Origin: Halalkalicoccus paucihalophilus
Lineage (GTDB): Archaea; Halobacteriota; Halobacteria; Halobacteriales; Halalkalicoccaceae
DNA: 64,000 nt
NCBI RefSeq assembly: GCF_001593955.1
Contig: NZ_LTAZ01000004.1
Span: 310,001-374,000 of the forward strand
Direction of reading: 5' to 3'
The notes beneath the pieces are model-generated. The model searched no databases. It saw only the letters and a list, made by a program, of their open reading frames with translations, and had not been told where the DNA came from. A program made the translations under genes and the position numbers. Shown piece by piece: positions 35,333 through 37,541 of this stretch (positions are counted from its first letter, which is position 1; each line of letters begins with the position of its first letter).

Positions 35333-36094
35333 CTAAATCCCGGTCGGCGCGCCGATCCACGTCGTTTCGAGCCCCCAGTCGTCGGCGAGCGATTGAAGCG
35401 ACCGCACACCGAACGTCTCGGTCGCGTAGTGGCCCGCGAGGACGACCGTGATTCCCGCTTCCTTGGCCTCGTGGTACACCTGCTGTTTCCCTTCGCCGGT
35501 CACGAACGCGTCCGCACCCGACTCGATGGCCTCGGAGAGCCAGTCGGATCCGCTTCCGGTGACGATCGCCACCTCCTCGATCTCGTCGGGACCGAACTCC
35601 AGCACCCGGACCTCCTCGGTGCCGGTATCGAGATCCGAGAGCCCGGCTTCGAGTCCCTCCACGTCGTACGTCGAGGACGCACGCCCGGCCAGACCGATCG
35701 TCTCGCCGCCGAGCGAGCCGAACGGCTCGCGGGCCTTGAGTCCGAGGCGGTCGGCGACCCCGGCGGCGTTTCCGAGTTCGGGATGGGAGTCGAGCGGGAG
35801 ATGCGAGACGTACAGCGCGAGGTCGTTCTCGATCAGCGCGGCGATCCGGTCGTAGGTCCGGCCCGTCACCCGCTCTATGCCGCCCCACGAGAGGCCGTGA
35901 TGGACGCAGAGGACGTCCGCGCCCGCCTCGGCGGCTCGCTCGATGGTCTCTGCGGCGGCGTCGACCGCGAACGCGGCGCGCTCGATTTCCCCCCCACCGC
36001 CGACCTGTAACCCGTTCGCACTGGCATCGATCCCGGCGAAGTCGTCGGTTCGGAGCCGCTCGTCGTAGCGCTCACACAGTTCCGACTGTTGCAT
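35333..36094 (-). CDS. Nif3-like dinuclear metal-centre hexameric protein
   Basis: A 253-residue Nif3/DUF34 family protein. The metal ligands are seen in DVLCVHHGLSWGG (HH pair), ALYVSHLPLDSHPELGNAAG (H and D) and near the C-terminus in VLAGHYATETFGVRSLQ (H and E). YqfO/GTP-cyclohydrolase-like or metal-trafficking functions have been proposed for the family; none is firmly established. The ATG at 36094 (MQQSELCERYD) is preferred to 36109. It is divergent from the basic micropeptide gene. Confidence 0.9.
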   Translation of the reverse strand: MQQSELCERYDERLRTDDFAGIDASANGLQVGGGGEIERAAFAVDAAAETIERAAEAGADVLCVHHGLSWGGIERVTGRTYDRIAALIENDLALYVSHLPLDSHPELGNAAGVADRLGLKAREPFGSLGGETIGLAGRASSTYDVEGLEAGLSDLDTGTEEVRVLEFGPDEIEEVAIVTGSGSDWLSEAIESGADAFVTGEGKQQVYHEAKEAGITVVLAGHYATETFGVRSLQSLADDWGLETTWIGAPTGI

Positions 36095-36173
36095 GGCGGG
36101 GAATTCCATCGCTATCGTTAAGAACGTGTGTCCGTGAGCTCACAGTGCGGTTCGTGAACGTACTCGATCCAAC

Positions 36174-36181
36174 GAGGTGAT
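36174..36181 (+). promoter_or_regulatory. Strong Shine-Dalgarno sequence gaggtgat
   Basis: Eight bases complementary to the 3' end of archaeal 16S rRNA (AUCACCUC), five bases before the ATG at 36187. Many haloarchaeal genes lack any such signal, so a perfect one before a 37-codon frame is good evidence of translation. Confidence 0.6.
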
Positions 36182-36186
36182 GACAG

Positions 36187-36300
36187 ATGGGCAAGCTTCG
36201 GAAAGCCATGCGGACATGGCGACGACTGCCGCGCAGCGTCAGACGACGCATAAAGAGCAAAGCACGGCGGCTCGTCCGACGAAACGGCTCCTCGAAGTGA
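36187..36300 (+). CDS. Extremely basic 37-residue micropeptide
   Basis: A short frame with 17 Lys/Arg among 37 residues (12 Arg, 5 Lys) and no acidic residue, in a genome whose proteins are otherwise acidic. It begins MGKLRKAMRTWRRLPRSV and ends RRNGSSK. It is preceded by a near-perfect Shine-Dalgarno sequence (36174-36181) at good spacing. It resembles in character, but not in sequence, tiny ribosomal proteins such as eL41. It lies between nif3 (divergent) and the agmatinase gene (convergent), inside the aIF5A-modification neighbourhood. An RNA- or ribosome-binding role is inference from charge. A second frame (ATG 36180 to 36347) overlaps it but has no space for its ribosome-binding site. 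Confidence 0.55.
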   Translation: MGKLRKAMRTWRRLPRSVRRRIKSKARRLVRRNGSSK

Positions 36301-36324
36301 TCTCGGACGATCGACGGCGTTCTT

Positions 36325-37164
36325 TTATCGACTCCCAGTTCGGGTAGCCGCACGCTCATAAACGAACTCCCTGAGCAGTTTTCCGCCGAGCGCCGCGGCC
36401 TGTCCGTCGTCGCGGTCGTTGACCTCGACCACGTCGAACCCCACACAGGAGGGCGCGACCGCCCGGACGACATCGCGCATCTCGCGGGGGGTCAGCCCGA
36501 ACGGCTCCATGGTTCCCGTTCCGGGGGCGAAACCGGGATCCGCACCGTCGATATCGACGCTCAGATACGTCGTGTTCCCCGCAAACGGATCGCGCTCCCC
36601 CTCGGCGACCGCCCGGAGCCATGCACCTGTATCCTCGGGCGGGACGACGGTGACGTCGCCTTCTGCGGCACGCGCCCACTCCGCTTCGCTACCGGTTCGC
36701 GCACCGACGACGATCGCCTCCGCGGCGGTTTCGAGGACGCGCTGGGTCACGCAGGCGTGGGACCACTCGTCGCCGTCGTACTCCTCGCGCAGGTCGAGGT
36801 GGGCGTCGATCGTGACGAACAGGTCGGGGTCGGTCGCCCGGACGCCGGCGGCGCTGACGGTGTGTTCGCCACCCAGAAGGAGGGGGACGGCGTCGTCCCA
36901 GACGACGTCGCGAAGCACGCCCGAGAGGTGCTTGACGTACTCGGGGACGTCGTTCCACGCGTGAACGTCGCCGTAGTCGTGAACAGAGAGGTCCGAGAAT
37001 CGGCGATCGGTTCGTCCGTCGTAGTCGTCGAACGTTTCGGCGAACTTCCTGATCCGGTCGGGCCCGAAGCGAGTGCCGGGCTGAAAGCTCGTCGAGACGT
37101 CGAGCGGCGCGCCGACGACCACGTAGTTCGCCTCCGAACGCGGTGCCGACGCGCCGGGGAACAT
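36325..37164 (-). CDS. speB: Agmatinase/ureohydrolase family protein
   Basis: A 279-residue arginase-fold enzyme; agmatinases split agmatine into putrescine and urea. All six manganese ligands are visible: His101 (GGEHTV), Asp120, His122 and Asp124 (IDAHLDLR), and Asp204 and Asp206 (SVDIDGADP). In Haloferax volcanii an agmatinase gene adjacent to aIF5A is needed for (deoxy)hypusine formation, probably acting after transfer of an agmatine-derived group. The same adjacency here (start codon touches the aIF5A stop at 37164) supports that role. Free polyamine synthesis is the alternative. Confidence 0.9.
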   Translation of the reverse strand: MFPGASAPRSEANYVVVGAPLDVSTSFQPGTRFGPDRIRKFAETFDDYDGRTDRRFSDLSVHDYGDVHAWNDVPEYVKHLSGVLRDVVWDDAVPLLLGGEHTVSAAGVRATDPDLFVTIDAHLDLREEYDGDEWSHACVTQRVLETAAEAIVVGARTGSEAEWARAAEGDVTVVPPEDTGAWLRAVAEGERDPFAGNTTYLSVDIDGADPGFAPGTGTMEPFGLTPREMRDVVRAVAPSCVGFDVVEVNDRDDGQAAALGGKLLREFVYERAATRTGSR

Positions 37165-37541
37165 CAGACGATCTTTCGCTGGCCTTCCATTTCGAGGTAC
37201 TCGATGCTGTCCTCGGGCGAGAGGTCCGCGTCGTTGGGTGTGCTGATCGTGATGGTTTCGTAGGTATCGAGGTCCATCACCTGCGCGACGGTGTCGCTCT
37301 CGACGCTGATGACCTGGCCCTGCTTTCGCTCGATTATCGGGACTCTGATCTTCGCGTCGACGGGCTGGGAGAAGCTGCGCTTCTTGCCGTCGAAGACGCC
37401 CTTGCCCTCGACGCGGGCCTTTGCGCTGCCGTGTTTGCCCGGTTTCGCAGTGCTGTAGTGGGTGATCTTACACGCCGCCTCGTCCATCATGACGTAGCCG
37501 CCCTCCTGCAGATCGCGGACCTGCTTTTGCTGCGTTACCAT
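37164..37541 (-). CDS. eif5a: Translation factor aIF5A
   Basis: A 125-residue factor that relieves ribosome stalling, with an N-terminal SH3-like domain and a C-terminal OB domain. The hypusination loop is [14 protein letters not shown] with the modified lysine expected at Lys36 (PGKHG). The C-terminal half has [20 protein letters not shown] and ends in acidic [15 protein letters not shown]. It is the first gene of a two-gene operon: the agmatinase start overlaps its stop by one base. The modifying enzyme deoxyhypusine synthase lies about 2.2 kb downstream on the same strand. Confidence 0.96.

Follow-up and report, generated by a model that had tools for sequence, protein, structure and literature searches.

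A conserved, strongly basic micropeptide gene of haloarchaea at the NIF3 and agmatinase-aIF5A locus, possibly encoding an accessory RNA- or ribosome-binding peptide

Accessory ribosomal peptides of the bacterial bTHX/PSRP4 type are about 25-30 residues long and very basic, start with MGK, are patchily distributed and have no core role. In haloarchaea, which combine a molar-KCl cytoplasm with an acidic proteome, a conserved protein that is so basic is expected mainly among RNA-bound proteins. Small basic peptides acting, or proposed to act, in transcription have been described in Halobacterium salinarum; these are Brb (55 aa, pI 11.4), which acts on bop, and Bp2 (33 aa, pI 12), and the Brb/Bp peptides are encoded together with a zinc-finger gene (PMC3184054). 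The clustering of the aIF5A and agmatinase genes is also already known, and Haloferax cannot do without its agmatinase gene (PMC5178350). Here, we analyze a micropeptide gene encoded at the corresponding locus of Halalkalicoccus paucihalophilus, no description of which was found in a limited literature search.

The gene (36,187-36,300, + strand) comprises 37 codons from the ATG at 36,187 and a TGA ending at 36,300, and encodes MGKLRKAMRTWRRLPRSVRRRIKSKARRLVRRNGSSK, a product with 12 arginines and 5 lysines, i.e. 17 basic residues, and no aspartate or glutamate. The Shine-Dalgarno (SD) sequence gaggtgat (GAGGTGAT; 36,174-36,181, + strand) is separated from the start codon by a 5-nucleotide spacer, and an SD-like site is found in 33 of the 46 distinct members of the family to which the peptide belongs. 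The acid-free, Arg/Lys-rich frame and its SD had been proposed in a sequence-only reading of this DNA and are both confirmed at these positions. The window (the whole analyzed stretch of 64,000 nucleotides) has 110 ATG-started open reading frames (ORFs) of 25-60 aa; none but this one reaches 40% Arg and Lys, and just one other has an SD-like site. Third codon positions are less GC-rich in the micropeptide family (GC3 0.66) than in the neighboring genes of the window (0.82-0.90). Arginine usage (36,187-36,297 and the family) also differs, with CGA accounting for 35% of the Arg codons in the family vs 17% in the NIF3, agmatinase and aIF5A genes of the same loci; the codon for R12 is CGA in 32 of 44 members and CGC in none.

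Searches with tblastn identified the micropeptide in two other species of the genus, with 92% and 86% identity. Altogether, the family was detected in 48 of 394 Halobacteriales genomes (12%), at 49 loci that span 16 genera and 6 families, with products of 30-42 residues; single-sequence and profile searches returned the same 48 genomes, weak additional matches with E-values above 1e-4 being left out. Carriers known by name include Halomarina halobia, Halomarina oriensis and several Halobacteriales MAGs. Beyond Halobacteriales, no relatives were found in the other lineages sampled, and 295 genomes of the phylum gave marginal matches only (E about 0.006), which are taken as chance; collections of viral contigs, phages and plasmids contain no match to the family, and a viral or plasmid origin is rejected. 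All members align from their initiator Met onward, and the family follows the pattern M[GS]KxxKAxxxWRRLPRxxxRRIxxK, in which M1, K3, W11, P15 and I22 are invariant and A7, R12, R13 and L14 nearly so.

The substitution pattern is that of a protein-coding gene under selection. In pooled close pairs, pN is 0.038 and pS 0.197 (ratio 0.19), so that synonymous substitutions are about five times as frequent as amino-acid replacements, and among congeners the pattern is reversed in the two alternative frames. All 49 members keep the micropeptide frame open, whereas the other two frames contain stops in 24 and 29. The overlapping 56-aa frame at 36,177-36,347 was considered as a rival and rejected: its counterpart is stopped in one congener (G005) and in 29 of the 49 members, which, together with the reversed substitution pattern, implies that it is not the conserved frame. 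A lack of conservation of the frame in close relatives, or conservation of the overlapping frame in its place, had been named beforehand as grounds for refutation; with the frame kept across 16 genera, and with the SD and the synteny holding as well, the proposal of a real gene is strongly supported, and we conclude from the alignments that the frame is a genuine, selected, haloarchaea-restricted gene with its own SD.

Comparison of this family with databases of known proteins yielded no assignment. No family in Pfam, NCBIfam or PADLOC scores above its curated cut-off or otherwise gives a convincing E-value, no member matches ribosomal Pfam models at E-values up to 10, and PDB sequences include no relative, with no match to any chain of a solved ribosome. 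Like eL41, the micropeptide is tiny, Arg/Lys-rich and, by prediction, helical, but the family differs in its Leu-Pro break, invariant W11 and patchy haloarchaeal range. Homology with eL41 (PF05162) was rejected, given an hhalign probability of 1% with the yeast sequence and no eL41 chain among the PDB matches. The earlier description of the peptide as a product of the eL41 kind that lacks the eL41 sequence holds as regards the absence of homology, the likeness being one of size, composition and predicted helicity. A scan of 21 haloarchaeal genomes gave no eL41 over the Pfam cut-off, a weak negative, as the control Methanocaldococcus also falls below it. The small, basic eL39 shares an MGKxxKA start with the micropeptide, but the alignment extends over just 8 residues at the N terminus (hhalign probability 3.7%), and homology was likewise rejected. 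The bTHX/PSRP4 peptides resemble the micropeptide in size, basicity, MGK start and patchiness, differing in being bacterial rather than archaeal. Finally, the haloarchaeal CPXCG zinc-finger micro-proteins carry two C(P)XCG motifs, whereas none of the 46 distinct members contains cysteine.

The genomic neighborhood is as the sequence-only reading had it, each neighbor being supported by a Pfam match. The micropeptide gene diverges from a NIF3/DUF34 gene (35,333-36,109; PF01784, E=2e-58) and converges with a gene of the agmatinase/arginase family (36,325-37,164; PF00491, E=2e-56), which is followed by the aIF5A gene (37,164-37,541; PF21485, E=2e-15); all three are located on the - strand, opposite to the micropeptide, and deoxyhypusine synthase (PF01916) is encoded beyond NIF3. 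The micropeptide gene is therefore inserted counter to the direction of the aIF5A-agmatinase-NIF3 row. In 44 of the 49 loci, it lies directly beside NIF3 (divergent, with starts 54-205 bases apart) and/or the 3' end of agmatinase-aIF5A (converging). Any link to hypusination is positional, and the NIF3-agmatinase linkage occurs without the micropeptide in a sampled subset of genomes. In one locus (L096), a gene for an IS605-type OrfB/TnpB-like protein (PF01385, PF07282) is inserted between the micropeptide and agmatinase genes, both of which are intact.

The exceptions to this synteny comprise solo copies in genomes G325 and G328, a pair in G340 adjoining 3' fragments of agmatinase, and G083, in which 1 kb separates the gene from NIF3. 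The copies at L108, L109 and L110 are relocated. Those at L108 and L109 (G340) lie next to a 3' agmatinase fragment, as expected had a small part of the locus been copied elsewhere. The solo copy L112 (G325) retains a cgttaag block resembling the NIF3 promoter with no NIF3 nearby, which suggests an origin at the canonical locus.

Of the genomes searched, 88% lack the family, and almost all of these possess NIF3. In congeners that lack the micropeptide (G002, G003, G004 and G006) and in a sister genus, the gap between NIF3 and agmatinase is -16 to 24 bases, compared with about 220 where the micropeptide is present. Another 40 NIF3 loci, taken from genomes with no match, showed no diverged micropeptide copy; in those that extended to agmatinase, NIF3 and agmatinase are 37 bases to more than 1 kb apart, and the long gaps hold unrelated genes. 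Conversely, every listed genome carries the micropeptide in several genera (g27, 9/9; g38, 5/5; g71, 5/5; g43, 4/4; g21, 3/3). This combination of genus-wide retention and genus-wide absence indicates that the micropeptide is selected in some lineages and dispensable elsewhere. The agmatinase tree mainly tracks the group codes, with carriers and non-carriers interleaved and at least 8 changes. Because position and orientation are the same in six families, the comparison suggests an old gene that was lost many times. Transfer of the whole locus is a possible alternative to many losses, a case in point being the agmatinase of L052, the sole f8 carrier, which groups with f17.

Several non-coding elements accompany the gene. 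A block around cgttaagaacgtgtg (36,116-36,131) is identical in the alignment of three congeners, and a promoter role is inferred for it: read on the - strand, it resembles a TATA box for NIF3. The start of NIF3 itself may be the second Met codon (the ATG ending at 36,094) instead of that at 36,109, with cttaac about 26 bases before 36,094, as in a leaderless transcript. The motif GTTAAG is repeatedly present upstream of the micropeptide in many members of the family. Past the stop codon, a T-rich stretch, gatcgacggcgttcttttat (36,309-36,329, + strand), is partially conserved in the alignment of three congeners and is a possible candidate terminator common to the micropeptide and the converging agmatinase gene. 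In many members, a short GC hairpin lies between the TATA-like block on the NIF3 side and the SD (36,120-36,186 here; leaders of L036, L045, L095 and others), with stems that differ in sequence between genera. These hairpins are mildly stable (mean z -0.70, compared with about 0 in control stretches), and the element could be part of a leader RNA or an operator, its place in the transcript being unclear. A structured RNA was rejected as a reading of the region, given no Rfam match and the just mild stability of the leader hairpins.

AlphaFold2, run with the 46-member alignment, predicts a helix at residues 3-13, a break at L14-P15 and a second helix at residues 16-35 (mean pLDDT 81.5). The pTM is 0.38, so the packing of the helices is uncertain. 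The codons for the first helix and L14, with invariant K3 and W11, occupy 36,187-36,228 (+ strand), and those for P15 and the second helix, with invariant P15 and I22, 36,229-36,291 (+ strand). Hydrophobic columns at positions 4, 7, 8, 11, 14, 18, 22, 26, 29 and 30 have the spacing of a textbook amphipathic helix, and the mean hydrophobic moment of residues 2-30 is 0.63, compared with 0.25 in shuffled sequences. All members carry a net charge of +11 to +18; acidic residues occur in few of them, mostly in C-terminal tails. In a high-KCl cytoplasm, such a charge points to RNA, most likely ribosomal, as the partner. Judging by composition and predicted shape, we tentatively favor, at somewhat less than an even chance, an accessory, non-essential, ribosomal protein-like micropeptide that binds RNA or the ribosome. 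Its fold would consist of a short helix, the Leu-Pro break and a longer helix; the hydrophobic stripe (F/L4, A7, M8, W11, L14, T/V18, I22, A26, L29, V30) would pack the helices together or onto a partner, and the Arg/Lys faces would bind structured RNA. The likeliest partner would be rRNA; the peptide would then resemble eL41 or bTHX in kind and may stabilize or tune ribosomes in some haloarchaeal lineages. Presence in just 12% of the genomes and loss within the genus argue against a core ribosomal role, and the preference for CGA at position 12, together with the GC3 of 0.66, is unlike a highly expressed ribosomal protein. Counting against the ribosomal reading, the Trp and the hydrophobic stripe would also suit a membrane or protein partner.

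Among the other functions considered, a Brb-like micropeptide that binds DNA or a transcription complex, regulating, for example, the adjacent NIF3 or aIF5A-agmatinase genes, seems unlikely on balance. Like the micropeptide, Brb and Bp2 are haloarchaeal, small and strongly basic (compared by description only), so they provide a precedent for such peptides in transcription (PMC3184054), and the micropeptide gene shares a promoter region with the divergent NIF3; however, no zinc-finger or Bat partner was identified among the adjacent genes, and the relocated copies in G325 and G340 are distant from intact NIF3 and agmatinase. It is distinctly doubtful that the gene stays in the aIF5A-agmatinase locus because its product acts together with hypusinated aIF5A on the ribosome, as a hitherto undescribed accessory ribosomal protein or translation factor specific to haloarchaea. 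We give a similarly small chance to a membrane-active amphipathic cationic helix that targets the anionic membrane of archaea and serves either as a regulator or, once secreted, in the manner of an antimicrobial peptide: the helical hydrophobic moment is very high and continuous and the Trp is conserved, but no signal peptide is visible, the SD-led gene sits in a conserved housekeeping locus, charge covers most of the helix and leaves a thin hydrophobic face, and high salt would screen charge-driven membrane binding.

A derived RelE-like helical hairpin that has no catalytic sheet but still docks at the ribosomal A site is highly improbable. Eight of the 46 members match the RelE-like phrog_1213 (E 0.0024-0.07), the individually examined ones in register with the N-terminal hairpin (profile positions 9-39 of 88), and hhalign with haloarchaeal RelE/ParE pairs residues 6-30 with the same hairpin, which has a similar helix, L[PD], helix arrangement and hydrophobic spacing. 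This similarity is a weak lead that falls short of significance (hhalign probability 7.9%, p=0.004), Pfam yields no RelE/ParE match, and a generic helix-LP-helix suffices as an explanation; the micropeptide also differs from RelE/ParE in having no catalytic beta-sheet, as the ORF stops after residue 37 and all members have 30-42 residues. A chance ORF or non-coding sequence, conceivable for so short a frame in a GC-rich genome that abounds in Arg-rich shadow frames, is ruled out, decisively by the preservation of frame, start, SD and invariant residues in 16 genera, and also by the in-frame selection.

The micropeptide adds a clean, alignable family of 30-42 residues to a size class overlooked by gene finders and family libraries. 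Its natural presence and absence within one genus, at an otherwise unchanged locus, offers an easy direct test, and the gene draws attention to one more component at the locus for hypusination, a pathway that takes an unusual form in haloarchaea and in which agmatinase is essential (PMC5178350).
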